13,946 bases of DNA from Myxococcales bacterium (GTDB lineage Bacteria > Myxococcota > Myxococcia > Myxococcales > Myxococcaceae): NCBI GenBank assembly GCA_003153055.1, contig PMBV01000326.1:1-13946 (forward strand). The letters run 5' to 3'. A program made the translations under genes and the position numbers. Positions 1 through 13,946 of the stretch are shown piece after piece. Each line of letters begins with the position of its first letter. Positions within the stretch are counted from its first letter, which is position 1. Below the pieces are notes generated by a model. It ran no database searches, was not told where the DNA came from, and worked only from the letters and a program-made list of their open reading frames with translations.

Positions 1-2
1 TC

Positions 3-1100
<1,098 letters not shown>

Positions 1101-1110
1101 GCTCCTTCCG

Positions 1111-1803
1111 ATGCTGGCCCGCCGCCCACGAATCCTCCCCCGCCGCGCCGCCTCCGCCACCTCGGTGGTGGTGAAGGAGATCTACCTCTCGCTGCAGGGC
1201 GAGTCGACGCACCAGGGGCTCTTGTGCACCTTCGTGCGGCTGACCGGCTGTCACCTGCGGTGCACCTACTGCGACAGCGCCTTCGCCTTTCGTGGAGGTG
1301 AGCGCCTCGAGAACGAGGCGGTCGTGACTCGCGTGCTGGCCTTGGGCGCGAAGATGGTCGAGGTGACGGGAGGCGAGCCGTTGCTCCAGCCCGGGGTTTA
1401 CCCGCTGATGGAGGCGCTCCTGGGCCGGGGCCTCACCGTGCTCCTCGAGACCTCGGGTGCCATCGACGTCAGTGAAGTGCCGGCGGCGGTGCATAAAATC
1501 GTCGATCTCAAGACGCCGTCATCGGGCGAGGCCGATCGCCATGACCCGCGCGTCTTCGACTCGATGAACGAGCATGATGAGCTCAAGGTGGTGATCGGCA
1601 GCCGCGCCGACTACGAGTGGGCGGTGGAGCGCCTCCGCGAGCACCAGCTCGATCGCCGGCCCTTCTCGCTGCTCTTCTCCACGGTGTTCGGAGCCCTCGA
1701 GCCTCGGCAGCTCGCCGAGTGGATCATCGCCGACCGGCTGCCGGTGCGGTTCCAGCTCCAGCAGCACAAGTACCTGTGGGCGCCTGACGCGAGAGGGGTC
1801 TAG
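1111..1803 (+). CDS. queE: 7-carboxy-7-deazaguanine synthase QueE (radical SAM)
   Basis: Radical SAM enzyme that converts 6-carboxy-5,6,7,8-tetrahydropterin to 7-carboxy-7-deazaguanine on the route to queuosine. Seen: family opening EIYLSLQGES (23-32); the cluster-binding cysteines C47, C51 and C54 in CHLRCTYC; the SAM-contact motif TGGEP (86-90); ETSG (113-116); DLKTPSSG (132-139); and a C-terminal RFQLQQHKYLW. At 230 residues it has about 18 extra N-terminal residues rich in Arg and Pro. Start choice: the ATG at 1111 has only a weak AGG (1099-1101) upstream; an in-frame GTG at 1165 would give 212 residues and begin right before the conserved core, so the extension may not be translated. The partner genes queC, queD and queF are not in the window. 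The stop is two bases before the next ATG. Confidence 0.93.
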   Translation: MLARRPRILPRRAASATSVVVKEIYLSLQGESTHQGLLCTFVRLTGCHLRCTYCDSAFAFRGGERLENEAVVTRVLALGAKMVEVTGGEPLLQPGVYPLMEALLGRGLTVLLETSGAIDVSEVPAAVHKIVDLKTPSSGEADRHDPRVFDSMNEHDELKVVIGSRADYEWAVERLREHQLDRRPFSLLFSTVFGALEPRQLAEWIIADRLPVRFQLQQHKYLWAPDARGV

Positions 1804-1805
1804 CG

Positions 1806-3212
1806 ATGCGGCTTCATGCGCGGTACCTCGAGCCCGAGCCCCTGCGCGCGCAGCTTCGCACGGGGGTGCTCCAACCGGGGAAACTGTACACCTCGCAGTA
1901 CGCCAAGGAGGGGTACGGGAACGCGCTGGTACGAACCAACGAGACGGGTGCCCTCGACGAGGAGGCAGCCTGCGCCCTGCTCGATGCCGTGCTCCAGACC
2001 GGCGGGCAGGGAGGCTCGCTCGAGGTCGCCGACGAGGCCGAGTTTCTTCCGCGGTTCCTCTCAGTGGCCGGGGCCGCGCTCGATGATGTGGGCCTGGCTT
2101 CCCAGCTCCTCAACGGTGGTTTCCTCGGTCGGCTGGGCCAGGGGCCGTTCACCTTCGGCTCGTTGCCGCTGAGGGTCATTCGGCGACAGGTCACACCGAC
2201 AACGCTGCGGAGCGCCCGAACCCGGGTGGAGCTCGGCTGGGACTCGGATCTGGTCAACCTGCTCGAGAGCGCGGCGCTGCTCGCCGAGCGGGAGCCCGAA
2301 CAGCACCTGGTCGTGCTCAACGCGCCGATGGTGCGCTTGCCGTCGACGCCGGTGGACTCCGCGCCGCCGATGGCCAGGCCCAAGCCGCTGGACATCGACC
2401 GGCTGTTGGCCGAGGCCATGGGGCTGGGGGCGCAAGATGTGTTCCTCCAGAGTGGGCGACCGCCGTCGTTCCATGGGCCGAGAGGCAGCGCCACGCGCGG
2501 AGAACCGCTGAGCCGCGAGACGCTGTTCATGGTCGCCGCGCGGCTGGGGACCTCGGTCGACAGCGACGTGGTGCAGGTCGGGGCGATGCAGGTCGAGGCC
2601 GTGGGGCGAGTGCGGGTCAGCGCCTCGAAGGCGGGCATCGCCTTGCGGGTGCTGGGGCCCTCGGCGTTCCTCGCCCCGGGCCTCGACAGCCTGTTGGGTC
2701 TCAAACGTGGGTTGGTGGTGATTGGCGGGCCACCCGCGAGCGGGCGGTCGACGAGCTTCTCGGCGATGTTGCACGCCTCCTTCGACGCTGGCCACGTCAT
2801 CGCCTCGCTGGAAGAACCGGTGAGCTTCCCCCGGTGCGACTTCCAGTGGAACGCCGAGCCCACCAAGGTCGAGCCATTCTTCCGCGCGGTGCGAACGTCG
2901 GCGGCGTCGGTGGTCGGCTTCGACTTCATCGACGACGCGGTGTCGGTGGACCTCGCGCTCCGCGCCGCGCAGGAGGGCCGGCTGGCCGTGTGCACGATGC
3001 TCGGGTTGTCGCTCGGCGCCCTCGTGGAGCGCCTCGCGGTCCTCGACGCTCCGGCCCAGCGGCGCCGGGTGGCGGAGCACCTGGTGGCGGTGGCCTGCCT
3101 CACCCCGGGGAGCAGCGCGCGGATACTCCTGCCCTCGGACGCGCTGCGACGTCACCTGGCCCAGGAGGTGAGCCCTCCACCTCCGGAGTTGCTCGGCCGG
3201 ACCGACGGCTGA
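1806..3212 (+). CDS. Degenerate PilT/GspE-type secretion ATPase homologue with novel N-terminal region
   Basis: 468 residues in two parts. Residues 1-190 match nothing I recognise. Residues about 195-450 follow the plan of type IV pilus retraction and type II secretion ATPases. LDIDRLLAEAMGLGAQDVFLQ resembles the PilT N-terminal segment that reads like LLxxAVxxGASDLHL. GLVVIGGPPASGRSTSF is at the P-loop position; SLEEPVSF (334-341) sits where PilT has the EDPIE Asp box; VVGFDFIDD (369-377) sits where PilT has VGEMRD; and LALRAAQEGRLAVCTM is at the LALTAAETGHLVFGTLHT position. The key residues are changed: the Walker A lysine is Arg314 (codon CGG at 2745-2747), the catalytic glutamate of VGEMRD is not kept, and the His box is lost. 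It is probably a non-hydrolysing or regulatory paralogue. It lies two bases after queE, so it is translationally coupled, although no functional link to queuosine is evident. Confidence 0.7.
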   Translation: MRLHARYLEPEPLRAQLRTGVLQPGKLYTSQYAKEGYGNALVRTNETGALDEEAACALLDAVLQTGGQGGSLEVADEAEFLPRFLSVAGAALDDVGLASQLLNGGFLGRLGQGPFTFGSLPLRVIRRQVTPTTLRSARTRVELGWDSDLVNLLESAALLAEREPEQHLVVLNAPMVRLPSTPVDSAPPMARPKPLDIDRLLAEAMGLGAQDVFLQSGRPPSFHGPRGSATRGEPLSRETLFMVAARLGTSVDSDVVQVGAMQVEAVGRVRVSASKAGIALRVLGPSAFLAPGLDSLLGLKRGLVVIGGPPASGRSTSFSAMLHASFDAGHVIASLEEPVSFPRCDFQWNAEPTKVEPFFRAVRTSAASVVGFDFIDDAVSVDLALRAAQEGRLAVCTMLGLSLGALVERLAVLDAPAQRRRVAEHLVAVACLTPGSSARILLPSDALRRHLAQEVSPPPPELLGRTDG

Positions 3213-3223
3213 GTCTCGGTCGA

Positions 3224-3242
3224 CACCGGGAGCGCTCCGGTG
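3224..3242. repeat. Near-perfect palindrome between the PilT-like gene and the next gene
   Basis: CACCG (3224-3228), one unpaired G, the palindrome GAGCGCTC (3230-3237), then CGGTG (3238-3242). It lies 12 bases after the stop at 3212 and 43 bases before the ATG at 3286. No T-run follows. It could be a weak terminator stem or an operator for the downstream gene; the sequence does not decide between them. Confidence 0.3.
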
Positions 3243-3285
3243 GCCGTGTTATGCATTTGGCGAACGCGGCGTGGGGGGCACCAGG

Positions 3286-3795
3286 ATGACGGCAGCGGTC
3301 GACCAAAGAGAGAGCGGCCCCGGGTGGGTCCATGGCCGGGTGGGGAACGTCGTCTTTCTCATCTTCCACTCGTGCGTCTCGGAAGACGGGATTACCCACT
3401 CCTTCGAGGTCATCGGTCGAACCCTGGCGCGGCACCCGTCGGGCATCGCCCTGGTGGCGATATTCGGGGAGCGGACCCAGGTCCCGTCGGCGGCCACGCG
3501 TCGGAGGATCCTGAGCTACATGGGCGGCATCGCCAAGCAGTTGTTGATTGGCGGCACCGTCATCGAGGGTGACAGCGTTGGCGCCACGGTGAAGCGGGTG
3601 GCGACCTCGATGATGACGACCATCATCAGCCCACAGTTCGCGCACAAAACGGTGCGCTCGGTCCCCCTCGCCTGCGACTATGTCGCCCGGTGCGCCGTCG
3701 ACGACCAGGGCGCGCCGCTGTCTCAGGGGGCGCTGTTCTTGGCGGCCACCGGGCTGAGGTCGACGATGCCGTCGGAGCCCGTTCTGTCGATGTGA
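3286..3795 (+). CDS. Hypothetical protein, possible STAS/SpoIIAA-like fold
   Basis: 169 residues, no signal peptide and no membrane helix. The pattern is a beta strand (NVVFLIFHS), a helix (SFEVIGRTLARH), a beta strand (GIALVAIFGE), a helix (SAATRRRILSYMGGIAKQ), a beta strand (LIGGTVIEG) and a further helix and strand. This alternation, with a conserved-looking P-S/D-x2-R motif (PSAATRR, 67-73), resembles a lineage-specific family of STAS-like proteins seen in myxobacteria, but I infer this from pattern only. I chose the ATG at 3286, with CCAGG immediately upstream, over the in-frame GTG at 3271. The gene converges on the dioxygenase gene with only 7 bases between the stops. A 73-base gap with a palindrome separates it from the upstream operon. 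No function can be assigned. Confidence 0.7.
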   Translation: MTAAVDQRESGPGWVHGRVGNVVFLIFHSCVSEDGITHSFEVIGRTLARHPSGIALVAIFGERTQVPSAATRRRILSYMGGIAKQLLIGGTVIEGDSVGATVKRVATSMMTTIISPQFAHKTVRSVPLACDYVARCAVDDQGAPLSQGALFLAATGLRSTMPSEPVLSM

Positions 3796-3802
3796 GGTCG
3801 GC

Positions 3803-4681
3803 TCAGCTCACCCGGTCGTAGTACCGTGCCCGATACAGGAGCCGCCGGCGTGCGGGTGACTCGGTGAAGCCGCTGCGATCATGGAGCACGTTGTTGCAGA
3901 CCAGCCCCATGCCGGGCTCGAGGCGGCCCTTGAGGGTCCAAGGCGTGGGGGTCGAGAGGAGCCGCTCGAGGGCGAGGCGGGCAGCCCGCGTGGTGGCGTC
4001 GTCCTTCCACGCGATGCTGACGGTGCGGGCGGTGTAGCGCATGTGGAGGTGGCCCTGGGCGTCCACCGAGAACACCGGGCCAGGTTGCTCGGGCCGGGCG
4101 ATGCCGTGCTCGTCTGCCCTGGCGGGAACGCACATCGCGTCGGGGGCTGACAGAGCGGCGACGTGCGATGGGTCTTCGTCGCGGAGCAGGAGGTACGCGA
4201 GCTCGTGATCGAGCAGCTGGTTCTCGCCGCCCAGCTCGGCGCTCTCCACGCAGTGCAGCAGGAGGCCGCGCACGGTTCGCTGTGGAGGGTTGTAGTACCC
4301 GTCGGTGTGCCAGCGAATGGGGCGGTCGGTGTAGGGAATGAACTCGCGCCGCTCACCCCGGTCTTCGGCGCCTCGAACCGAAATGGGCGAGATGGCGTCG
4401 TCGTCGGTCAGCCAATGGTCGTCGAGCCGGAGGAGGCCGAGCTGGGCCCCGAGACTGCGGGGGATCTCCTTGTCCGGGTCGCGGCCCGTCGTGCCGGCGT
4501 AGATGGCCAGGTTGGCTCGCTCGATGAGCTCGAGGAGCCGGGCGCGCTCGGCAACGGTGAGGCGCCGGGGGTCGCTCACTTCAACGAGCACGTCCTCCAG
4601 GCGGCCCGGCGCGGTGGCGAGCTTTCGGTCTCGCCAGGCAGCGTAGGTCTGGGTCTCAGACAGATCGAAGGGAGAAGGCAT
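3803..4681 (-). CDS. TauD/TfdA-family Fe(II)/2-oxoglutarate-dependent dioxygenase
   Basis: 292 residues, the usual length for the family. The iron-binding facial triad is visible: H125 and D127 in RWHTDGYYN, and the distal H267 in NNVLHDRSGF. The 2-oxoglutarate-binding arginine is expected among R278-R284 in ARRRLLYRAR. GRLEPGMGLVCNN before the distal His and GLLLHCVESAELGGENQLLD after the HxD motif are also typical of the fold. The enzyme is a cytoplasmic oxygenase that couples 2-oxoglutarate decarboxylation to hydroxylation of a small molecule; the substrate cannot be read from the sequence. The ATG at 4679-4681 is supported by GAAGG seven bases upstream on the coding strand. It is divergent from the DUF6463-type gene across 118 bases that contain two palindromes. 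No sulfonate-transport genes are adjacent, so taurine use is not supported. Confidence 0.85.
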   Translation of the reverse strand: MPSPFDLSETQTYAAWRDRKLATAPGRLEDVLVEVSDPRRLTVAERARLLELIERANLAIYAGTTGRDPDKEIPRSLGAQLGLLRLDDHWLTDDDAISPISVRGAEDRGERREFIPYTDRPIRWHTDGYYNPPQRTVRGLLLHCVESAELGGENQLLDHELAYLLLRDEDPSHVAALSAPDAMCVPARADEHGIARPEQPGPVFSVDAQGHLHMRYTARTVSIAWKDDATTRAARLALERLLSTPTPWTLKGRLEPGMGLVCNNVLHDRSGFTESPARRRLLYRARYYDRVS

Positions 4682-4738
4682 GAGCGGCCTTCAGGGTAGC
4701 AGGTGCGAGGCCCAGGCGCGCAGGGAGCGTACTCTTTG

Positions 4739-4753
4739 GAGCGCCAGGCGCTC
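4739..4753. promoter_or_regulatory. Perfect 15-base palindrome in a divergent intergenic region
   Basis: GAGCGCC A GGCGCTC: two 7-base arms that are exact reverse complements around one base. It lies between the divergent starts of the dioxygenase gene (4681) and the DUF6463-type gene (4800), followed three bases later by a second palindrome. The position fits a regulator-binding site, but the regulator is not in the window. Confidence 0.4.
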
Positions 4754-4756
4754 GAA

Positions 4757-4772
4757 CATACGCTAGAGTATG
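4757..4772. promoter_or_regulatory. Inverted repeat CATAC-N6-GTATG, candidate operator
   Basis: CATAC (4757-4761), GCTAGA, GTATG (4768-4772): perfect 5-base arms with a 6-base spacer, unusually AT-rich for this genome. It ends 27 bases before the ATG at 4800. A second AGTATGG follows at 4786-4792, giving a directly repeated half-site. The size and spacing suit a TetR-, PadR- or MarR-type repressor site; this is inference. Confidence 0.4.
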
Positions 4773-4799
4773 GCAAGTACCACTCAGTATGGAGGCGCC

Positions 4800-5216
4800 A
4801 TGAATCTCACCCCAGGGAAGACGATGTTCGCCACCGGGCTCGTGCACCAAACCGTCGGGGTCCTCGCCGGCGTCGGCCTCCTGACCACCGGCAGCGGCCC
4901 TCCGCGAAACCTGTTCGCCGAGCTCGTGCGCGGTGGCGTGGTCGGCGCGGTGGAGCCCGACCCTCAGCGGCAGGTGCTCTTCTGGTTCCTCTTCTTCGGC
5001 TTCCTGGTGCTCTCACTGGGGTGGGTGATGGATCGCCTCGAGACCCCCGAGCGGCCGCTCCCCAGCGCCGTGGGGTGGCAGTTGCTCGCCATCGCCTTCG
5101 CCGGGGGGCTGCTCATTCCCGCCTCGGGCTTCTGGCTGGTCGTCCCTCAGGGGCTCTGGGTGCTCTGGCGCGCCAAGAAGAGCCGGGCGAGCCTCAGCGC
5201 TTCAGCGCCCGCTTGA
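4800..5216 (+). CDS. Small membrane protein, DUF6463-like
   Basis: 138 residues with about four hydrophobic segments: 9-29, 58-78, 93-107 and 108-123. Characteristic pieces are AVEPDPQRQVLFWFLFFG (50-67), a tryptophan-containing loop GWVMDRLE, and PASGFWLVVPQG near the C-terminus; these fit the DUF6463 family of inner-membrane proteins with no established function. Start: the ATG at 4800 is preceded by GGAGG (4791-4795); the in-frame ATG at 4770 would run through the candidate operator and has a poorer ribosome site, so it was not used. The last 23 bases overlap the 3' end of the convergent acyl-CoA synthetase gene. Confidence 0.75.
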   Translation: MNLTPGKTMFATGLVHQTVGVLAGVGLLTTGSGPPRNLFAELVRGGVVGAVEPDPQRQVLFWFLFFGFLVLSLGWVMDRLETPERPLPSAVGWQLLAIAFAGGLLIPASGFWLVVPQGLWVLWRAKKSRASLSASAPA

Positions 5217-6669
5217 GGATCTTCCCCGAGTCGCCCTTGGGAAGCTCGGCCAGCACCTCCACGTGCTTGGGAATCTTGTACCGGGCGAGCTGCCCCTGAC
5301 AGAAGGCCAGCACCTCGTCGGCCGTCAGCGACGCACCGGCGACCGGGGCCACGAAGACCTTGCCGACCTCGCCCCACGTCTCGTCGGGCACCCCGATGAC
5401 GGCCACCTCCCTCACCTTGGGGTGCGTCGAGAGGAAGCGCTCGATCTCCACCGGGTACACGTTCTCGCCGCCGCTGATGAACATGTCTTTCTTCCGACCC
5501 GCCACGTAGAAGAAGCCCTCGCTGTCACGGCGCACCAGGTCGCCGGTGGCGAACCACCCGTCGTGAATCGCCTGGCGCGTCGCCGTGGGGTTCTCCCAGT
5601 AGCCCTTGGTGCACGCCGGGCCCTTGAGCCAGAGCTCACCCACCGCCTCGCCCTCGACCTCGTGCCCGTCGTCGCTCACCACCCGGGTCTCGATGTAGAA
5701 GTTGGGAAAGCCGATGGAGCCCATCTTGCGTTGGGAGTCCTCGGCGTTGAGCGAGAAGACGTTGGGCCCGAACTCCGTCAACCCGAAGCCCTGCCTGATG
5801 GGCACGTGGCGGGCTTCCCAGGTGCGAATGAGCTCGAGGGGCATCGGCTCTCCGCCCACGATGGCGTAGCGCACTGTCGCCAGCGTCACCTCGGAGAACG
5901 CCGTGGTGCGCGCCATCATGTCCAGCGTGGTGGGCACTCCGAAGAGAATCGTCACCCCTTCTTGGTCGCACAGCCGCAGCACCCGCTCGGCCTCGAACTT
6001 CTTCACGAAGACGACCCGGGCCCCGCGGTGGAACAGCGGCGTGTTCAGCACGTGCCAGCCGCTGGTGTGGAAGAAGGGCAGAAACGAGAGCGCCACGTCG
6101 TCGTGGGTGAGGTCCAACCGGAGCCCGGTGCTGACCGAGTTCCAGAACATCATCTTCGGGGTGATGATGGCGCCCTTGGCCGCCCCGGTGGTGCCCGAGG
6201 TGTACAGCACCATGGAGGCGTCTTCGAAGCCGGTCGCGAAGGCCCGCCGTCGTGTCGGGCGCGCCTCGTCGGCCAGCACCGCCCTCACGGCCTCGAAGTC
6301 GACCCGCACCACAGGGGCTCGGGTCAGGGCCGCGGCCGCCGGAGCGAAGTCTCGGTGCACCAGCAACAGCGACGGCCGGCAGTCGGAGAGAATGTGGTCG
6401 AGCTCGCGCGGCGCCAGTCGAAAATTGAGCGGCACCAAGATGGCGCCCAGGCGCTGGAGCGCGAAGAAGAGCGGGAAGTACTCGGCCTCGCTCCCGGCCA
6501 GCACCGCGACCCGGTCACCGCGCTGAGCGCCCCAACCCTCGAGCGCGTCGGCCAGCCGGCAGCTCGCCTGGTAGAGCCAGGCGTAGGTCCACCGCTCGCC
6601 CGTCTCCGCGTTCGTCACCGCGACGGCACTCGGGCTGTAGGTGCTCCACCTCTCGAGCCAGTCGTGCAT
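5194..6669 (-). CDS. Acyl-CoA synthetase (AMP-forming), ANL superfamily
   Basis: 491 residues. Adenylates a carboxylic acid with ATP and transfers it to CoA. The core motifs are present: the ATP-binding loop YTSGTTGAAKG (156-166); LPFFHTSGW (197-205); the A5 motif QGFGLTEFGPN (293-303); ATGDL (374-378); the hinge and A8 loop GRKKDMFISGGENVYPVEIE (391-410); and the catalytic A10 lysine K483 in PKGDSGKILKR. The motif set and length fit fatty-acyl or aryl-acyl CoA ligases rather than nonribosomal peptide synthetase domains; chain length and substrate cannot be assigned. The frame stays open upstream to about 7170, but that part lies antisense to the next gene and precedes the family start, so I chose the ATG at 6667-6669. 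The ribosome site there is weak. The gene ends inside the convergent DUF6463-type gene and is divergent from the gene at 6800. Confidence 0.88.
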   Translation of the reverse strand: MHDWLERWSTYSPSAVAVTNAETGERWTYAWLYQASCRLADALEGWGAQRGDRVAVLAGSEAEYFPLFFALQRLGAILVPLNFRLAPRELDHILSDCRPSLLLVHRDFAPAAAALTRAPVVRVDFEAVRAVLADEARPTRRRAFATGFEDASMVLYTSGTTGAAKGAIITPKMMFWNSVSTGLRLDLTHDDVALSFLPFFHTSGWHVLNTPLFHRGARVVFVKKFEAERVLRLCDQEGVTILFGVPTTLDMMARTTAFSEVTLATVRYAIVGGEPMPLELIRTWEARHVPIRQGFGLTEFGPNVFSLNAEDSQRKMGSIGFPNFYIETRVVSDDGHEVEGEAVGELWLKGPACTKGYWENPTATRQAIHDGWFATGDLVRRDSEGFFYVAGRKKDMFISGGENVYPVEIERFLSTHPKVREVAVIGVPDETWGEVGKVFVAPVAGASLTADEVLAFCQGQLARYKIPKHVEVLAELPKGDSGKILKRALKR

Positions 6670-6799
6670 GCCCAGACCCAAGCACACTTGGCCGGCCCCT
6701 GGTCTCGGTCGTGGGCACCTCCGTTCTCGAAGACGAGGAAACGAAGGCTCAGGCAGTTGAATAGCTGCGCTGGGCTCGAGTGGCGCTAGACTCGGAGCA

Positions 6800-8719
6800 T
6801 TGTCTCTCCCGGGGCTCATAGACTCGGTATCAGTCGAGGCGACCCCCGACGGCCGCCAGCTCGGCGACTCGGCCACCGGAGCGGTGCTGCCGCTGAGCGA
6901 GGGTGAGCTGCGCCTGCTCGAAGCGTGGGACGGCAGAGTCAGCGCGGTCGAGCTCGCGGCCAAGGCGCTGAGCATCGGGGTCGACGTCGACGCGGGGCAG
7001 GTCGAGGCCTTCTTCTCTCGAATGTCGCGCATCGGGGTGCTCGGGCGGCCACCGCCGGTGGTGCCGGGCGCCGTGGTACCGCCCCTCGGAGTGAAGGGCG
7101 AGGCGGACATCGTCCCGTCGTTTCGGAGTGACTTGAAGCTCGAGCCGGCCCAGGGAACGCGGGGGGTCATTCACGTCGTCGACCCGGTGGCCCAGGTGAC
7201 CTTCACGCTCTACGACTTCGAGGTGTCGGTGGCCCGCATGCTCAACGGGCAGCGCTCGGCGAGTCAGGTGCTGGAGGCCGCGGACCGCATCGGGGTGCCG
7301 CTGACGTTGGCCTCTCTGAGGGCCTTCATCGGGCAGCTTCGGGCCTTTCGGTTCCTCGACTCCAAGCCGGTGCGGAGGCACACCACCTGGAAGCCACGGA
7401 AGGTCTGGAGTGACGAGGTGCGCGAGCTGTACCAGCAGGCGCTGAAGCTGGCTCGGCGGGGTGATCGCCACGACGCGATGTCGTGCCTGGAGTCGGTGCT
7501 CGAGCTCGACCCGATGAACGAGGACGCCATCGCCCTCAACGCCCGCCTCGGCGACACGTCGGGGCGGCCGGCCATCGGAACGTCCTTCGACCTGCTGCAC
7601 GCCAAGGCACCTCCCGAGGTCGTGGGCCCGGCGATGAAGCCCGAGTACCCGCTCGCGCAGGGCATGTTGGACCCCTTCGAGGCGCTCGAGCCAGTGGTGG
7701 ACCCAGCGGTGCCACAGCCCCAGGCACTCGGCAGCGGGCCTGCCTTGTGGCCCACCAGTGGGCCGGAGGTCACTGCTGATGACCTCTCGCTGTCCCAGCG
7801 GCAAGAGGCGATGACCCGCAAGCGGACGTTCTGGCCAATGATCACGCTCGCCAGTGTCCTCACGCTGGGGCTCGCAGGGCTGTTTTACCCGGTGGTGAGC
7901 ATCAACGAGACCAGCTGCTCCGTCGATCTCCTCGAGCTGGCTTCCCTTCGAGCGCCCTCGGCGGGCGTGGTGAGGTTCGAGGCGAAGCCGGGGCAACTGG
8001 TGTCGGTGGGCCAGGTGGTGGCGCGCATGGGTAAAGCCGGCGGCGGAGACCTCGACGTGCCGGCGCTTGAGAAGCGGCTGGCCGAGGCGAACCAGAAGAA
8101 GGCCAAGCTGTCGCCAGCTCCGGCGGCGAAGGTGTCGAAGGCACAGAAGCGATTGGCCCTCGCCAAGGCGCAGCTCGAGCCCCTGGCGGCCCAGCGCGAG
8201 AAGCTGGCTGCCCAGAAGGGGCCGGCCGCGGCGAAGAAGCTGGCCGCCTTCGACAAGACCCTCAGGGCGAAGGAGGCGGCGGTGGCCAAGGAGCGGGCGG
8301 AGGTTGAGGACCTGACCCACGCGCAGGCGCTGGCGGCGATCGAGAAGACCATCGCTGATACCAAGCGAGACCTCGAGGCGGCGCCTTCGGGGAGCGAGCC
8401 CGCGGACATCGTGGCCACGCAGGCTGGGCAGCTGGTGGTCGAGCCGACGCCCGTGGGCTCCCTGGCCGGAGGCACTGACGTGGTGCCCAAGGGCACGGTG
8501 GTGGGGCGGTTGGTGTCGCCCACGCTGAAGGTGACGCCGAAGCAGGGAGCGCCGCGGGCGTCAGGGCGCATCACCGTGATGGTGGGAAGCGAGCAATTGG
8601 AGGCGAGGGTCGACGGCTCGCGGCTCTTCATCGAGGGAGACGCGAGCCTGGCGGGCAAGCCGTGCATGGTGACGATGCCGGAAGGTCGGCGGCCGTGGGT
8701 GTTGACGCTCCTGCGGTAG
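6800..8719 (+). CDS. Composite protein: two PqqD-like modules, TPR-like segment, membrane helix and HlyD-type adaptor region
   Basis: 639 residues. Residues about 28-82 and 123-188 each look like a PqqD-type winged-helix module, the second clearest: VDPVAQVTFTLYDFEVSVARM, then LNGQRSASQVLEAA, then FIGQLRAFRFLD. Residues 205-250 (EVRELYQQALKLARRGD, then AMSCLESVLELDP) read as one TPR-like helical pair. A Pro-rich linker leads to one membrane helix (344-366). After it come a first biotinyl/lipoyl-like half (LRAPSAGVVRFEAKPGQLVSVGQVVARMG, 383-411), a long Ala/Lys/Glu-rich coiled-coil hairpin (420-526) and the second lipoyl half (538-570). This is the plan of HlyD-type membrane fusion proteins with a cytoplasmic PqqD-like N-terminal region. 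Known PqqD domains bind peptide substrates; that this one does is inference. No exporter or peptide gene is nearby. The start is uncertain: TTG at 6800 with GGAG only two bases upstream. Confidence 0.72.
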   Translation: MSLPGLIDSVSVEATPDGRQLGDSATGAVLPLSEGELRLLEAWDGRVSAVELAAKALSIGVDVDAGQVEAFFSRMSRIGVLGRPPPVVPGAVVPPLGVKGEADIVPSFRSDLKLEPAQGTRGVIHVVDPVAQVTFTLYDFEVSVARMLNGQRSASQVLEAADRIGVPLTLASLRAFIGQLRAFRFLDSKPVRRHTTWKPRKVWSDEVRELYQQALKLARRGDRHDAMSCLESVLELDPMNEDAIALNARLGDTSGRPAIGTSFDLLHAKAPPEVVGPAMKPEYPLAQGMLDPFEALEPVVDPAVPQPQALGSGPALWPTSGPEVTADDLSLSQRQEAMTRKRTFWPMITLASVLTLGLAGLFYPVVSINETSCSVDLLELASLRAPSAGVVRFEAKPGQLVSVGQVVARMGKAGGGDLDVPALEKRLAEANQKKAKLSPAPAAKVSKAQKRLALAKAQLEPLAAQREKLAAQKGPAAAKKLAAFDKTLRAKEAAVAKERAEVEDLTHAQALAAIEKTIADTKRDLEAAPSGSEPADIVATQAGQLVVEPTPVGSLAGGTDVVPKGTVVGRLVSPTLKVTPKQGAPRASGRITVMVGSEQLEARVDGSRLFIEGDASLAGKPCMVTMPEGRRPWVLTLLR

Positions 8720-8747
8720 CGGCGGAGCCTCGCTGTGCCGGAAAGCC

Positions 8748-8783
8748 GAGTGGGGCGGACCGTCCCCACGGCCCACCCCACTC
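8748..8783. terminator. Stem-loop after the PqqD/HlyD-like gene, candidate terminator
   Basis: GAGTGGGG (8748-8755) pairs exactly with CCCCACTC (8776-8783). Inside the loop, CCGT (8760-8763) can pair with ACGG (8768-8771) around CCCC. CTTCCCTT follows, a pyrimidine tract with few Ts. It lies 29 bases after the stop at 8719, between convergent genes. Confidence 0.4.
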
Positions 8784-8814
8784 TTCCCTTCCTCACTCAC
8801 CAACTGTTCCGTGG

Positions 8815-8843
8815 TTGCTCGAGGTCCCCTGCTGATCGAGCAA
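8815..8843. terminator. Perfect 8-base inverted repeat between convergent genes, candidate bidirectional terminator
   Basis: TTGCTCGA (8815-8822) and TCGAGCAA (8836-8843) are exact reverse complements around 13 bases. On the minus strand it lies about 30 bases beyond the end of the GGDEF gene; an 8-base run of C (8845-8852) adjoins it. There is no U-tract on either strand, so termination is inferred from position and symmetry only. Confidence 0.35.
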
Positions 8844-8873
8844 TCCCCCCCCGACAGTGGTGTTCCCCTACGA

Positions 8874-9467
8874 CTAAGCCGCGCTGGCGCGGTGGCCAGC
8901 CTCCAGGTGAGCGCGACGCTGGTGCAGCGCCCGCTTGTCCGAATACATTTCTTCGTCGGCCCTGGAGAGCAGGCTCACCTCATCGTCACCAGGGCGGAAG
9001 GTGGCCGAGCCGAGAGAGAGCCCGAGGTGGAGCCCGTGCTCCGAGAGGTCTCCCAGGCGGGCGCGGATGCGCTGCACCACGACGCGGCACTGGGCGGCGT
9101 CGGTGTCGGGGAGCAGCACCGCGAATTCGTCACCGCCCATGCGGCAGCAGAGATCCTCGGCGCGGGTCAGGGTCTCGAGGAACTGGCCGACGCCGACGAG
9201 GGCCGAGTCACCGGCGAGGTGGCCCTTGGTGTCGTTGAGGTGCTTGAAGCCGTTGACGTCGAGGCAGATGACCGAGACCGGCGCGTGGCGGCGCTGGTGC
9301 CGGCAGAGCTCCTCGGCCAGGCGCTCGGAGAAACAGCGCCGGTTCCGCAGGCCAGTGAGTGGGTCACGGTAGGCGAGTGCGAGGAGGCGCTCGTTTTCCT
9401 TCCGGAGGCTTTCGAGCTCCCCCTTCAGAATGTCGAGCTGCTCGGAAGTAAACCCCATGATTCCCAT
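8874..9467 (-). CDS. Diguanylate cyclase with GGDEF domain and product-inhibition site
   Basis: 197 residues. Makes cyclic di-GMP from two GTP. A short coiled-coil-like N-terminus (about 7-32, SEQLDILKGELESLRKENER) runs directly into the GGDEF domain. Seen: DPLTGLRNRR (35-44), metal-binding D70 in CLDVNGFK, the active-site GGDEF intact at 111-115, and an RxxD inhibitory site (RAED, 102-105) exactly five residues before it. The domain ends with ADEEMYSDKR. There is no sensor, receiver or membrane segment, so the input probably comes through the coiled coil or from expression level. The ATG at 9465-9467 is supported by GAGG five bases upstream on the coding strand; another ATG lies three codons in. 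The upstream region carries two TGACG palindromes. Confidence 0.93.
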   Translation of the reverse strand: MGIMGFTSEQLDILKGELESLRKENERLLALAYRDPLTGLRNRRCFSERLAEELCRHQRRHAPVSVICLDVNGFKHLNDTKGHLAGDSALVGVGQFLETLTRAEDLCCRMGGDEFAVLLPDTDAAQCRVVVQRIRARLGDLSEHGLHLGLSLGSATFRPGDDEVSLLSRADEEMYSDKRALHQRRAHLEAGHRASAA

Positions 9468-9517
9468 GATGGCCTCGTGGGGAAGCCATTGAGCAACTGC
9501 CTTGCCAACGCCCGAGT

Positions 9518-9562
9518 TGACGCGTCATGCGGATCATCGCGGGGTTGTGTGACGGCGCGTCA
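9518..9562. promoter_or_regulatory. Two TGACG/CGTCA palindromes upstream of the GGDEF gene
   Basis: TGACGCGTCA (9518-9527, no spacer) and TGACGGCGCGTCA (9550-9562, three-base spacer GCG), starting 32 bases apart, about three helical turns. Single copies of the half-site recur at 9613-9617 (CGTCA) and 9724-9728 (TGACG). They sit 51-95 bases before the GGDEF start and may be binding sites for a dimeric regulator. The rest of the 303-base stretch 9468-9770 holds a short AGGCCC-TC-GGGCCT palindrome (9573-9586), a TTGACA at 9568-9573 without a convincing -10 partner, and no open gene. Confidence 0.4.
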
Positions 9563-9572
9563 GGGTGTTGAC

Positions 9573-9586
9573 AGGCCCTCGGGCCT
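9573..9586. repeat. Short GC-rich palindrome in the GGDEF/tRNA intergenic region
   Basis: AGGCC (9573-9577), loop CTCG, GGCCT (9582-9586). A TTTTT run lies 16 bases later at 9602-9606, too far for a standard terminator. It overlaps the TTGACA hexamer at 9568-9573. Role unknown. Confidence 0.3.
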
Positions 9587-9770
9587 TCCAGGTGGGGTGT
9601 CTTTTTCTCCGGCGTCAAGACCTACCCACATGGACGGAGATCAAGAGAGAAGCCTGCGTTCTCGATCGCTTACGGCCCCTCCATCGGGACATGGGGATGT
9701 GGGTGTGAGCGAGCGATCTCACTTGACGTAGGTAGGGGCGTACGGCAGAAGTCCGCCCGCCTTTCGTTAC

Positions 9771-9843
9771 GCCCAGGTAGCTCAGTTGGTAGAGCAGGGG
9801 ACTGAAAATCCCCGTGTCGCTGGTTCGATTCCGGCCCTGGGCA
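9771..9843 (+). tRNA. tRNA-Phe (GAA)
   Basis: The full 73-base cloverleaf can be drawn. The acceptor arm pairs GCCCAGG (9771-9777) with CCTGGGC (9836-9842), with A as the discriminator base. The D arm has GCTC/GAGC around AGTTGGTA. The anticodon stem GGGGA/TCCCC (9797-9801, 9809-9813) encloses the loop CTGAAAA, with GAA at 9804-9806. The T arm is GCTGG-TTCGATT-CCGGC. The 3' CCA is not encoded (CTG follows), so it must be added enzymatically. TTGACG at 9723-9728 could be a -35 box, but I see no good -10. An accessory-looking operon begins 93 bases downstream, and tRNA genes are common integration sites, although no repeat of the tRNA 3' end was found in the window. Confidence 0.97.
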
Positions 9844-9850
9844 CTGCAAG

Positions 9851-9936: not shown

Positions 9937-10752
9937 ATGATCTCCATCGCTCCAATGAACCTACCGGCCGTGAAGTTCGAACGCCCACCAATTATCGAAG
10001 TCGCGTTCGGCGTGACGTTCAGGGCGATCCCCAACTTCACGTCGGCTCGTGTCGGCGAGTATTGGAAGACGGTTCAATCAGACTACCCCAAAACGGTGGA
10101 CCAACCGCCACTCGCTCAGGTCACCGAGGCCTTCGACGAGGTCCCCGCCATTGAGCTCAGCTTCGGCCCACTCCCACCGATGCGTCGTGCTCACTTCATC
10201 GCGGCTGACGAGCTGAGCCTGATTCAAGTTCAGGCCGACCGATTCCATTTCAATCGACGACGGACTCCGCCGCAGCAGTACGTTCACTTCTCGCAGACGA
10301 AACCGATGTTCGAGACCGAATTCGGCCGGTTTCAGGAGTTCATCAAGACCTCGTGTGGTGCTGAGCTCACACCAAGGCAGTTCGAGCTTACGTACGTCAA
10401 CGTGATTCCGGCCGAAGGGCCCCTTTTGGGGCTCAATGGTCTCGGCGAGGTTTTCCGAAATCTCTCCTGGAGCACGGCAGACAAGACTGTCCTAGGGACG
10501 ATGGAGAACGTGCAGTGGCAGGCGTCTTTCAGGATGCCGAATCAGCAGGGTCGACTTCACGTTCATCTCGCGAACGGCGTTCTGAACACGAAAGACGGCA
10601 CCGAAAAGCTCGGTCTCCAGTTGCAAATCACCGTTCGGGGTTATTCAAAGGCCATGTCCGAGTGGTTCGACTTGGCCCACGGATGGATCGTGAACGCCTT
10701 CGCAGACTTAACAACCGACACGATGCACAAGTACTGGGGGCGGGTGAACTGA
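9937..10752 (+). CDS. TIGR04255-like family protein (unknown function), first gene of accessory cassette
   Basis: 271 residues, soluble, no signal or membrane helix. The N-terminal pattern FERPPIIEVAFGVTF (14-28) and the C-terminal pattern with AHGWIVNAFADLTTDTMHKYWGR fit the sporadically distributed TIGR04255 family, whose members open with a PPI-x-EV motif followed by a beta strand and end with a helix before a W-G residue pair. The central part alternates beta strands and helices (IQVQADRFHFNRR, QFELTYVNVIP, HVHLANGVLN). No catalytic motif is evident and the family's function is unknown to me. The ATG at 9937 has GGAG at 9928-9931. Its stop TGA overlaps the ATG of the next gene (TGATG), so the two are translationally coupled. 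Base composition is visibly less GC-rich than in the neighbours, consistent with acquisition. Confidence 0.7.
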   Translation: MISIAPMNLPAVKFERPPIIEVAFGVTFRAIPNFTSARVGEYWKTVQSDYPKTVDQPPLAQVTEAFDEVPAIELSFGPLPPMRRAHFIAADELSLIQVQADRFHFNRRRTPPQQYVHFSQTKPMFETEFGRFQEFIKTSCGAELTPRQFELTYVNVIPAEGPLLGLNGLGEVFRNLSWSTADKTVLGTMENVQWQASFRMPNQQGRLHVHLANGVLNTKDGTEKLGLQLQITVRGYSKAMSEWFDLAHGWIVNAFADLTTDTMHKYWGRVN

Positions 10753-11174
10753 TGCAGATTCAGCATTTCACAATGGATCGAGCGGAGAAGCCCTACTTCA
10801 AGCAAGCAGAGCAGGAGAAGCCTGGTGCGGCGGCATTGCAGTCTGGGGTTGCCTTCCGGGTGATTCAGCAGAATCCGAAAGCGGAGGAGCTGCTCGGGTT
10901 GATTCGGGCCGGCGACGTCACTCCTGCCATCGATGAGCTGTACGACGTCTTCCGGTCTTCGTTTCGCGCACGGCGGCTTGACTACCTCGAGTCGTTGGTT
11001 CGGGGCCTCGTGGAGTCGGTCGACCTCTCTCCAGAGTTCGCCATCGCGGTGCTCACTGCGACGCTACCAGTACGCAAGACCCTGAGCGGTCGCTCGAAGT
11101 TTTACCAGGCGGTTTCCGAATATCTGCGGGCTCGCGGCCGTGTCCCGAGCGAAGTCCTGCATGGGCTCGAATGA
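10752..11174 (+). CDS. Hypothetical protein, mostly helical, middle gene of accessory cassette
   Basis: 140 residues that I do not recognise. After a polar start (MQIQHFTMDRAEKPYFKQAEQ) it appears almost wholly alpha-helical, with a repeated pattern of amphipathic segments: KAEELLGLIRAGD, AIDELYDVFRSS, LDYLESLVRGLVESVD, EFAIAVLTATLPVRK and FYQAVSEYLRARGR. No signal, membrane segment or nucleic-acid-binding motif is obvious. The ATG overlaps the previous stop, which decides the start; the same frame is open upstream to 10515, but that stretch lies inside the preceding gene. The stop is nine bases before the third gene. Coupling suggests its product forms a complex with, or controls, one of the flanking proteins. 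Confidence 0.65.
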   Translation: MQIQHFTMDRAEKPYFKQAEQEKPGAAALQSGVAFRVIQQNPKAEELLGLIRAGDVTPAIDELYDVFRSSFRARRLDYLESLVRGLVESVDLSPEFAIAVLTATLPVRKTLSGRSKFYQAVSEYLRARGRVPSEVLHGLE

Positions 11175-11183
11175 ACCGAGACC

Positions 11184-11822
11184 ATGAAATCGTTCGCCGA
11201 CGTCAACGGGGGTTTTGTTGCTATTTCATTTGAACGAACGGGCCCAAACCAAAACCACGCCGGTTTGTGTTTTCGACAGGGGGCAGAGCCAGCGGTCCTC
11301 GTCGAGCTCCAATGGCACCACCAACTTGTGGTAGGTCCGCTTCGAGAGCCAATCAGACTGGCTGTGTTGGGCATCGACCCGCTTCGTCTCCCGGCGGTGG
11401 TTGGGTACGTTCGTTCCGTCGGTCAAAACCCGACCGACAGAATTCCCTACGGTGTTGCACTGCCAGACGACTGTTTCGACGCAACAACCGGAGCTTGGCT
11501 CCTCGGGCCAACGGGCCGAGGCCTCACGTGCGCAACCTTCGTAGTCGCCGTTCTCAGGGCGGTGGGCCTCGACTTGCTGGACCTCGAGACCTGGCAACCA
11601 CGCGCAGACGACGAGGCATGGCGACAAAGCATCATCGCCGCACTGCGCAGGAACCCTGCCAATCGGCAGCAGGCCGATCACATCGAACGAGAAGGAACCT
11701 GCTGTCGCTTTCGACCCGAGGAGGTGGCTGGAGCAGGGCTCGTACCTGTTTCGGGGTGGCCCGTCGCTTTCGCCGAGGCCCTGCGCCGTGCGGCGACGGT
11801 AGTCGCAACAGCACCACCATGA
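11184..11822 (+). CDS. Predicted circularly permuted papain-like (NlpC/P60-type) cysteine peptidase, third gene of cassette
   Basis: 212 residues, no signal peptide. The best clue is GLTCATFVVAVLRAVGL (113-129): a cysteine (C116) at the N-terminus of a hydrophobic helix, as in NlpC/P60 and papain-like thiol enzymes. A histidine in a beta strand comes before it (NHAGLCF, H25; also H45 and H46 in LVELQWHHQLV). Histidine before cysteine is the order in circularly permuted members such as YiiX/YaeF-type proteins. A hydrolase or acyltransferase acting in the cytoplasm is therefore inferred, not shown. A second cysteine pair, TCC (172-174), lies near the C-terminus. The ATG at 11184 has only a weak GAG upstream and probably relies on translation through the preceding gene nine bases away. 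Confidence 0.6.
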   Translation: MKSFADVNGGFVAISFERTGPNQNHAGLCFRQGAEPAVLVELQWHHQLVVGPLREPIRLAVLGIDPLRLPAVVGYVRSVGQNPTDRIPYGVALPDDCFDATTGAWLLGPTGRGLTCATFVVAVLRAVGLDLLDLETWQPRADDEAWRQSIIAALRRNPANRQQADHIEREGTCCRFRPEEVAGAGLVPVSGWPVAFAEALRRAATVVATAPP

Positions 11823-11836
11823 CGGAGATGTCACGA

Positions 11837-11884
11837 CCAGGAGCGCCCGGCCGGCTCGCCTCCTGGGAACCGCTCGTAGACGAG
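11837..11884. terminator. Two adjacent stem-loops behind the three-gene cassette
   Basis: CCAGGA-GCG (11837-11845) pairs with CGC-c-TCCTGG (11857-11866) with one bulged C. A second hairpin, CTCG-TAGA-CGAG, follows at 11873-11884. They begin 15 bases after the stop at 11822. No T-tract follows, so termination is a positional guess. Confidence 0.3.
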
Positions 11885-11940
11885 AACCGCGGTCCCAATC
11901 GCTCCACCCGAAACCATGGCGCCCACGGGTCCTCGATGGC

Positions 11941-12375
11941 ATGGTGTCCTCCGTGCCGAGTTCCGGGAGAGCCAGCCGCGCGCGAAGTCTGACGCTCAGC
12001 CTGGCGGCGCTTTGCCTCGTGGCTCAGCTCTCGGGCCTCGCGCACATGGCTTTCGTGCCCCACGTGACGTGCGCCGAGCACGGTGAGCTGGTCGAAGCGA
12101 GCACACCGACGAGCCCGTGGGGGCGCCTGGTCAGCTCAGCCGCGGCCCCCGAGGTCTGGGCCGACGAGTCGACGCCGGAGGCCACTCCGGGGCATTCACA
12201 CGATCACTGCATCGTCACCTCGATGCGGCGAATGACGACCTTCCCGCTCGGCCTGAGCTCTCTGGTCCTCGCCGCGCCCATCGCGCAGCCCGCCCTCGGG
12301 AACAGTGAGCCGCGACTCCAGGCGACGCTCCCGCTCTTGGCCGTCGCCCCCAAGAGCTCGCCTCCGCGCGGCTAG
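11941..12375 (+). CDS. Small exported His/Cys-rich protein, putative metal binding
   Basis: 144 residues. Arg residues at 10-15 precede a hydrophobic segment (16-33, ending near SGLAHMAF) that reads as a signal peptide or N-terminal anchor. Possible metal ligands follow: H41, C44 and H47 in HVTCAEHGE, and the cluster GHSHDHC (84-90, with H85, H87, H89 and C90). A second hydrophobic stretch lies at 101-119, and the protein ends with a short Pro/Ser tail. It stands immediately before the ABC importer genes (93 bases), where a metal chaperone, sensor or accessory factor would fit; the ligand pattern suggests zinc or copper but does not prove it. No Zur box was recognised upstream. The start at 11941 has a poor ribosome site. 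I do not know a named family for it. Confidence 0.6.
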   Translation: MVSSVPSSGRASRARSLTLSLAALCLVAQLSGLAHMAFVPHVTCAEHGELVEASTPTSPWGRLVSSAAAPEVWADESTPEATPGHSHDHCIVTSMRRMTTFPLGLSSLVLAAPIAQPALGNSEPRLQATLPLLAVAPKSSPPRG

Positions 12376-12468
12376 CGTCCACCTCGCGCCATTTCCAACC
12401 TGCGCCCGGGTCTGTCCCGGCGTCGCGGCGTTTCCCAAGCACCTCTCCCGCCCCACCGCAGGACCCCC

Positions 12469-13296
12469 ATGTCTTCCATCGCCTCGCCCGGAGCGCCAAC
12501 CATGGCCTCGCCGGAGCACCTCATCGAGCTCGACGACGTCATCATCGGCTATCGCGCTGATCGCCCCTTCACACCCCCCGTTCGCTTCACCGTGCGCGAG
12601 AGCGACACCATCGCCATTCTGGGGCCCAACGGCGCGGGCAAGAGCACGCTCCTCAAGACCATTCTCGGCCTGGTGCCGCCCCTCGCTGGCCGGGTGCGCT
12701 ACCGGAACGACGCCACACCCAAGGTGGGCTACGTACCCCAGGGCCACCGGGTCGATCTCGCCTACCCCCTCGATGCGCTCCAGGTGGTGTTGATGGGCCG
12801 CGTTCCCCGGGTCGGCCTGGCCAGGGGCTACCGGGCTTCCGACCGCGCCGCGGCCCTCGAACAGCTCGAGGCGGTCGGCCTGGGCTCCATGGCGCACCAC
12901 CCCTTCCGCAGCCTCTCGGGCGGCCAGCGGCAGCGGGTGCTGGTCGCTCGAGCGCTGGTGGGTGAACCCGAAGTGCTGGTGCTCGACGAGCCGACCAGCG
13001 CGATGGACCCAGCCGCCGAGCACTCCCTGCTGTCTCTGGTGAGCGACCTCGTCACCGCGCGTCAGGTGGCGGTGCTGTTCGTCACCCATGAAATCTCCGC
13101 CGCCGCCGGCTTCTCCCGCACCGTGCTGCTCCTCGACGGAGCCAAGCGCTCCTTCGAGGCCGGGCCGACGGAGGCGCTGGTCACCTCGGAGCACATGAGC
13201 CGCCTCTACGGGCGCCCGGTGGAGGTGCGGCGGGAGCACGGCCGCGCGCTCGTCTGGCTGTCCGCCCACGAGACCCCGACCGAGGGCGCGCCATGA
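12469..13296 (+). CDS. Metal (zinc/manganese-type) ABC transporter ATP-binding protein
   Basis: 275 residues; the cytoplasmic ATPase of a divalent-metal importer. Seen: Walker A GPNGAGKST (52-60), Q-loop Q91 in GYVPQ, signature LSGGQRQR (149-156), Walker B with DEPTSAMD (173-180), and H-loop H207 in FVTHE. The order and the YVPQ followed by Asp and aromatic residues before the helical domain fit the ZnuC/MntB/SitB group; metal specificity cannot be read from the ATPase alone. The ATG at 12469 has AGGA five bases upstream; a second ATG at 12502 is possible. The C-terminus (EVRREHGRALVWLSAHE) extends past the usual end. The stop overlaps the permease start as ATGA, so the two are translationally coupled. 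Confidence 0.9.
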   Translation: MSSIASPGAPTMASPEHLIELDDVIIGYRADRPFTPPVRFTVRESDTIAILGPNGAGKSTLLKTILGLVPPLAGRVRYRNDATPKVGYVPQGHRVDLAYPLDALQVVLMGRVPRVGLARGYRASDRAAALEQLEAVGLGSMAHHPFRSLSGGQRQRVLVARALVGEPEVLVLDEPTSAMDPAAEHSLLSLVSDLVTARQVAVLFVTHEISAAAGFSRTVLLLDGAKRSFEAGPTEALVTSEHMSRLYGRPVEVRREHGRALVWLSAHETPTEGAP

Positions 13297-13946
13297 GCTT
13301 CTGGGAAGCGAGCTTCCTCTGGAAGGAGCCGATGTTCGCCTCGCTGGTAGGCGCGGGGCTCCTCGGCTACCTCGGCTTCTTCGTGGTGCTACGGCGGGTC
13401 GCCTTCATGAGCGCGGCCCTCTCGCAGGTCTCGGGGCTCGGCGTGGCCACGGCGTTCTGGGTCGGCAGCTTCTTCGGGGTCTCCCCCCATGAGGACTCGC
13501 CGCTCTGGTTCTCGCCAGTGGCCTACGCCCTCGCCTTCGCCCTGGTGGGAGCCGCGACGTTCACGTTGCCGTCGCGGTCTCGTCGGGTCGCCCCGGAGAG
13601 CGTGGTAGCCCTGGCCTACCTCATGGCCAGCGCGCTCGTCATCGTGGTGCTGAGCAGCCCACGCATCGCCCAGGAGGCCCACGAGATTGGCGACCTCTTG
13701 TTCGGCAACGCGGTGGTGGTGCGGCGCGAGCACCTGGTGCAGATGTGCGTCGCCGCCGTGCTGGTGCTGGGGCTCCACGGAGCCTTCTTCAAGGACTTCC
13801 TCTTCACCTCCTTCGACCCGGAGACCGCCAGCGCGCTGGGCGTGCCGGTGCGCGCCCTCGACCTCGCGCTCCATGCCAGCCTCGCCATCTCGGTGGCGGT
13901 GTGTACGAGGGCGTTGGGGGCCTTGCCGGTGTTCGCCTTCCTGGTG
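13293..13946 (+). CDS. Metal ABC transporter permease, ABC-3 (ZnuB/MntC) family (3' truncated by window edge)
   Basis: First 218 residues of a permease that runs off the right edge. Hydrophobic segments lie near 14-34, 37-62, 73-92, 100-121, 148-166 and 188-218. GLLGYLGFFVVLRRVAFMSAALSQVSGLG (22-50) is the standard first helix pair of ABC-3 permeases, with the R-R-x-x-F-M-x-x-A-L-S motif. ESVVALAYLMASALVIVVLS and EIGDLLFGNAVVV (131-143) are also typical of ZnuB. The start ATG at 13293 overlaps the stop of the ATPase gene. Together they would form the membrane core and motor of a Zn/Mn importer; the solute-binding protein is not in the window. Confidence 0.9.
   Translation, partial: MSFWEASFLWKEPMFASLVGAGLLGYLGFFVVLRRVAFMSAALSQVSGLGVATAFWVGSFFGVSPHEDSPLWFSPVAYALAFALVGAATFTLPSRSRRVAPESVVALAYLMASALVIVVLSSPRIAQEAHEIGDLLFGNAVVVRREHLVQMCVAAVLVLGLHGAFFKDFLFTSFDPETASALGVPVRALDLALHASLAISVAVCTRALGALPVFAFLV

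Follow-up and report, generated by a model that had tools for sequence, protein, structure and literature searches.

A candidate sensor-adaptor-effector cassette with an exchangeable first gene behind tRNA-Phe in a Myxococcales contig

The cassette and its three genes

The window analysed here, a stretch of 13,946 nucleotides from a Myxococcales bacterium (contig PMBV01000326.1), carries on its forward strand, behind a gene for tRNA-Phe, a cassette of three coupled genes, here called A, B and C, of which B and C recur as a unit across distant genomes. The tRNA-Phe (GAA) gene, located by ARAGORN at 9771-9844, is a possible integration landmark. Gene A (9937-10752, 271 amino acids) encodes a TIGR04255 protein which would serve as an input or sensor module; gene B (10752-11174, 140 amino acids) encodes a predicted adaptor or regulator of C which, judging from its sequence, is probably helical; and gene C (11184-11822, 212 amino acids) encodes a predicted thiol hydrolase of the permuted NlpC/P60 (LRAT-like) type, which is the predicted effector. 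Genes A and B overlap in the bases TGATG and a gap of 9 bases separates B from C, exactly as stated in a preliminary description of this DNA; the position behind tRNA-Phe given there also stands, but the distance of 93 bases does not, since 92 bases lie between the end of the tRNA gene and the first ATG of A.

The composition of the cassette differs from that of its flanks. Its G+C content is 59.5%, compared to 68.3% in positions 1-9770 and 70.6% in positions 11823-13946, and the third-position G+C of A to C is 0.61-0.72, compared to 0.86-0.94 in the nine other open reading frames (ORFs) of the window that were measured; the counts on which the preliminary description based the same contrast (29/60 and 33/60, against 41/60 and 41/60) are all exact, and the cassette is “low GC” only relative to these flanks. 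It has probably been acquired horizontally. Searches for homologues found 79 proteins with C as the query, 5 with B and 11 with A (the counts for B and A include the window's own protein), and the three are therefore real genes rather than chance ORFs.

Above the cut-off, gene C has no match among the families of Pfam, NCBIfam or PADLOC, and Pfam yields none even at E<=1; against PADLOC-DB 2.0.0, A, B and C each match 0 families at E<=1. Because there is no Pfam match, C is assigned at the level of the fold only, to no named Pfam family. His25 (codon 11256-11258) and Cys116 (codon 11529-11531, in the motif GLTCATFV) are invariant in all 45 aligned sequences, and position 45 (codon 11316-11318) is His in 42 of them; the two histidines are predicted to be catalytic and the cysteine to be the nucleophile. 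In the structural model (pLDDT 91.5) His25 lies in the strand 23-31, His45 lies in the turn between the strands 38-43 and 47-52, and Cys116 stands at the start of the helix 116-126, so that the His-bearing strand precedes the Cys, which is the permuted order. The model and the three residues fit a permuted NlpC/P60 (LRAT-like) thiol hydrolase, a likeness which the top rows of VIA also suggest, and the candidate cysteine hydrolase of the preliminary description is supported by the invariant Cys and His together with the modelled fold. Unlike the permuted NlpC/P60 families, C adds a conserved C-terminal part with W..R..D..W and RFRPEEV. We take the permuted grouping to comprise LRAT/PLAAT, YiiX-like proteins (3kw0), picornavirus 2A and TseH. 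The fold covers lipid acyl hydrolases and transferases, peptidases and peptidoglycan enzymes.

Gene B likewise has no family match above the cut-off in Pfam, NCBIfam or PADLOC, its sole Pfam listing being a sub-threshold one to PAS_8 (13.7 bits, cut-off 21.8). Its architecture consists of a variable N-terminal part followed by a conserved domain of about 110 residues (10836-11171; alignment A11, 58 sequences) which ends in a Gly-Leu tail: a near-terminal Gly is present in 53 of the 58 sequences, and in 49 of them the chain stops 1-3 residues past the Gly column. A search by eye for motifs in the N-terminal parts of B that are specific to the type of gene A found sharing only among close relatives.

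The assignment of gene A to TIGR04255 holds, as its product matches the NCBIfam profile over its whole length (1-252 of 252) with 72.5 bits, compared to a cut-off of 30. The AlphaFold2 model (pLDDT 88.9) appears to be a duplicated beta-alpha-beta4-alpha saddle, and Foldseek at E<=0.001 finds only four chains for it, every one from entries that contain TBP (the Rhizobium row and L037 were excluded from the structure alignment). TIGR04255 is an NCBIfam subfamily whose entry description gives no function, and the name “TIGR04255” occurs in no paper of the literature library searched.

Recurrence, fusions and mobility

Scanning with the alignment of C gave 64 loci, 50 of them from species genomes and 14 from IMG/VR contigs, which together with the window make 65; near-duplicates (L051/L015, L062/L030, L063/L035 and L053/L018) are retained in the counts that follow, so about 61 loci are independent. 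According to their record titles, the 50 genome loci come from Planctomycetota, Verrucomicrobium, Proteobacteria, Myxococcota, Desulfuromonadales, Bacteroidota and Acidobacteria. A B-type ORF lies immediately upstream of C in 63 of the 65 loci, with a B-C gap of -101 to 38 bases, and the two loci that lack it lie at contig ends, where C begins at base 16 or 43. The B profile behind this count had been grown on upstream ORFs and was rechecked over all ORFs: across the 5319 ORFs of the 65 loci the model of the B domain gave 63 matches, every one of them in the ORF just before C, and it gave 0 matches to reversed sequences. This model was itself built from the same 65 loci, so a fairer test is a search that starts from B in other genomes. 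In 377 genomes of the phylum of L039, a Polyangiaceae genome whose phylum we take to be Myxococcota, such a search produced at least 24 matches in at least 22 genomes, which are lower bounds because at most 12 candidates were scored per genome. C adjoins B in 21 of the 24; six of the 24 were already in the model, and C is present in 15 of the remaining 18, while three of the 24 have B without a recognised C.

The constant unit is B with C and not the whole cassette, since gene A varies among the loci and a single conserved three-gene unit had to be rejected. The upstream gene belongs to TIGR04255 in 20 of the 65 loci, to a second family in 23, to a third in 8, and to other families or none in 14, as counted with profiles that were made largely from these same loci. 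The preliminary proposal that the genes stay together across distant genomes thus survives for B and C, but not for all three, TIGR04255 being one of several exchangeable upstream modules. A common ancestry of all the gene A families was considered and rejected (the hhalign probability between A5, A6 and A7 is 0.2-0.3), and a single-linkage join of two of the families, which hangs on a lone weak pair (E 5.1e-5, 14.5 bits), was not counted as evidence. TIGR04255 in its turn occurs mostly without B, as a B hit lies next to 7 of 55 TIGR04255 matches, and elsewhere it stands mostly with other downstream ORFs; it may serve generally as an input module whose partners change. In most of the TIGR04255 loci that lack B and C (L123-L152) a small ORF lies close downstream, which by eye looks like an Xre-type helix-turn-helix protein in L123, L124, L127, L128 and L130. 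The C-terminal part of the planctomycete-type gene A (L002, L004, L008-L010, L012, L013) resembles a COMM domain by eye.

The B domain is also found fused to other proteins. At L033 it ends a protein of 1301 residues, directly followed by C, which matches nearly the whole PADLOC profile of the type IIG (MmeI-like) restriction-modification enzymes (1406.8 bits, residues 17-1161) and contains Pfam MmeI domains; this protein differs from type IIG enzymes by its additional C-terminal B domain and by the C gene after it. At L039 the domain ends a Res-like protein of 1286 residues (PADLOC type III REase, 53.4 bits; Pfam ResIII, 21.3 bits, just below the cut-off of 22.5), which is preceded by the gene of a type III methyltransferase, Mod (PADLOC 250 bits, Pfam 153.8 bits), and directly followed by C; it is thus the B domain and C that distinguish this locus from a type III restriction-modification system. 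These fusions, which the preliminary description had not foreseen, are the best evidence that the module may act in defence, with the limitation that both come from a single Polyangiaceae metagenome-assembled genome. In five more genomes (L106, L110, L112, L114 and L116) an ImmA/IrrE-type (Pfam M78) protein ends in B; M78 is above the cut-off in four of the five, an N-terminal helix-turn-helix domain passes the Pfam cut-off in three, is weak in L106 and goes unlisted in L112, and a C match comes after each of the five. A single ORF at L101, not followed by a recognised C, combines part of TIGR04255 with B. About 380 bases past that ORF (L101, 222-668) lies an ORF of 148 amino acids with H...NCEHF and a C-terminal hydrophobic stretch, which is LRAT/PLAAT-like by eye and is perhaps a substitute effector.

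The distribution of the module is sporadic, as had been supposed: B occurs in at least 22 of the 377 genomes searched, and C in 6 of 298 genomes of Pseudomonas, the genus of L018, at E<=1e-10. It is also mobile. C is present in 3 of 72,556 plasmid records, from Rhizobium (typed as conjugative), Acinetobacter (6.9 kb) and Psychrobacter (6.6 kb); the B and C profiles match all three plasmids, and a gene A profile matches two of them, not that of Psychrobacter. The Acinetobacter and Psychrobacter plasmids have few other annotated genes (replication, mobilisation, RelE/ParE toxin, tautomerase and hypothetical proteins). In a Candidatus Competibacter (L011, 2991-16278) an exact 46-bp repeat of a tRNA-Phe end flanks 13.2 kb which carry a TIGR04255-B-C operon, an ORF of 845 amino acids and an apparent integrase broken into two frames, so identified because its coordinates fit an integrase match. 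Tyrosine integrases are convergent with C in L015, L018, L022 and L036. In 7 of the 50 genome loci (L015, L017, L018, L025, L027, L032 and L046) a tRNA gene precedes the operon by at most 1 kb, in L032 on the strand opposite to the operon; there is no tRNA-end repeat of at least 13 bases in L015, L017, L018, L025, L032 and L046, and the repeat in L027 is the 5' part of the tRNA. Within the window itself, no downstream repeat of the 3' end of tRNA-Phe (att) rises above shuffled controls, and inspection by eye of the ORFs downstream of C revealed no integrase, a dedicated search not having been made.

Proposed role and its alternatives

We lean towards regarding the cassette as one form of a mobile modular sensor-adaptor-effector conflict system, probably an anti-phage one, because this is the simplest account that covers the constancy of B and C, the changeable A, the fusions of B and the patchy, mobile spread. 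C would be the effector, an enzyme of the permuted NlpC/P60 (LRAT-like) class that works in the cytoplasm as a thiol hydrolase or transferase, and B would be its dedicated partner, with the variable N-terminal part turned towards the input module and the conserved C-terminal domain, with its near-fixed Gly-Leu tail, holding C. Gene A would provide the input in the form of a saddle-shaped, TBP-like TIGR04255 protein, which may sense a nucleic acid or a factor of the phage or the host; elsewhere the input would come from other proteins, or from restriction enzymes and ImmA/IrrE-type proteins fused straight to B. When the input fires, or when an invader disables it, C would be released onto a lipid or protein target, and the infection or the cell would be stopped. 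The view taken in the preliminary description, that of an effector module for defence or toxin/immunity, is partly supported by these results.

Two observations weigh against a role in defence. For the nearby defence genes to which the preliminary description had looked, the scan did not establish a higher density of PADLOC families beside the module than further away. The comparison covered 140 near ORFs (the nearest three per locus at 48 loci, of 415) and 150 far ORFs of 200; at E<=1e-10, 121 families were matched among the near ORFs and 58 among the far ones, with 1-2 members per family near and 1-4 far among the matches listed (the best 25 of each set). Since several PADLOC models match one restriction-modification protein, the genes behind these figures cannot be counted, and no enrichment is claimed. 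In addition, many of the neighbours that Pfam recognises are ordinary (gyrB, mutS, aconitase), besides 6 integrases among the 140.

A wider proposal, which is possible and is offered here tentatively, is that B and C form a general plug-in effector for varied detectors of foreign DNA or stress (TIGR04255 saddle proteins, type IIG and type III restriction enzymes, and ImmA/IrrE-type proteins), in which detection, or sabotage of the detector by a phage, would unleash the LRAT-like hydrolase on lipid or protein; this would amount to restriction with a suicide arm built in. Such a plug-in effector is described in none of the libraries searched and in none of the literature matches listed, whose titles and abstract openings hold no account of the module. 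If this reading of the cassette is right, an unnamed adaptor domain and an unnamed family of thiol enzymes join prokaryotic immunity, TIGR04255 gains a testable role as an input module, and restriction enzymes prove to be connected to an additional effector. All of the parts are small and self-contained.

B and C are unnamed in Pfam, NCBIfam and PADLOC, and the logic of the module resembles that of the EADs and bacterial Death-like domains, which are small non-catalytic domains that are carried by diverse sensor and enzyme modules and paired with effectors (PMC7159879, PMC8195603). EAD systems are described as being extended by homotypic interactions, with the domain present on several partners (eLife 2020, PMC7159879; eLife 2021, PMC8195603). 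B is similarly a small domain attached to varied modules and paired with an effector, but the module lacks this homotypic pairing, since 63 of 63 B-domain hits lie in the ORF before C, none lies inside C, and C is a separate gene; this contrast concerns architecture, B not having been compared with the EAD families.

The rival that survives best is a toxin-antitoxin pair in which B blocks C, and in which fusing B to a partner makes C a guard that is set free once this partner, be it a restriction enzyme or a protein of the ImmA/IrrE or TIGR04255 type, is missing or put out of action. As in type II toxin-antitoxin systems, a small regulator gene directly precedes an enzyme gene (in 63 of the 65 loci) and the pair is carried on plasmids, two of them small and carrying little else that is annotated; B has a conserved C-terminal tail that could block an active site; and among the 65 loci C never occurs without B where upstream sequence exists, while B stands without a recognised C in 3 of 24 matches. 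This asymmetry partly mirrors the seeds, however, since the 65 loci were found via C and the 24 via B. The module differs from type II pairs in that it usually has a third gene and an exchangeable input, a third coupled gene in most loci being unusual for a simple pair, and the toxicity of C is itself a prediction. This explanation is on the whole unlikely.

Considerably less probable is the explanation that prophages, satellites and plasmids carry the module as accessory cargo for their own benefit, through superinfection exclusion or help with transfer or lysis. The 14 copies in IMG/VR contigs, the integrases that adjoin C in four loci and the one repeat-flanked element that carries the module are consistent with cargo, but a search of 50,697 phage records with the C of the window gave no match at E<=1e-5, ordinary chromosomal genes make up many of the neighbours, and the fusions to restriction-modification and ImmA/IrrE-type proteins fit host defence equally well. 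A part in ordinary metabolism, with C remodelling lipid or peptidoglycan under the regulation of A and B, is very improbable: the permuted NlpC/P60 fold includes lipid and peptidoglycan enzymes, but the module is found sporadically, in 2-6% of the genomes of a searched genus or phylum, and the swapped partners, the restriction-modification fusions, the plasmid carriage and the atypical composition all argue against it.

Neighbouring genes and minor observations

After the cassette the window contains, at 12469-13296, the ATPase of an ABC transporter, which is ZnuC-like by eye. It has a match at E<=1e-40 in 2 of the 15 genomes searched, with 38-40% identity, and the host is therefore without a close relative among these 15. 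A close relative for comparison with an empty site was not found in 377 and 183 genomes of Myxococcota, the only phylum searched, where the best match to the window's first gene (ABC-ATPase-like) is 68% identical; for another core ORF of the window the identity reached at most 35%.

In Hankyongella ginsenosidimutans (L031, 8732-10616) A and C are broken into overlapping pieces, by decay or sequencing error. On the Rhizobium plasmid (L065, 5334-12924) the cassette stands 0.5 kb after a multiubiquitin/ThiF/DUF6527 set, a DUF4297 anti-phage-associated gene lies about 8 kb from the cassette, and dgt and a gene for 7-cyano-7-deazaguanine synthase are found further upstream.
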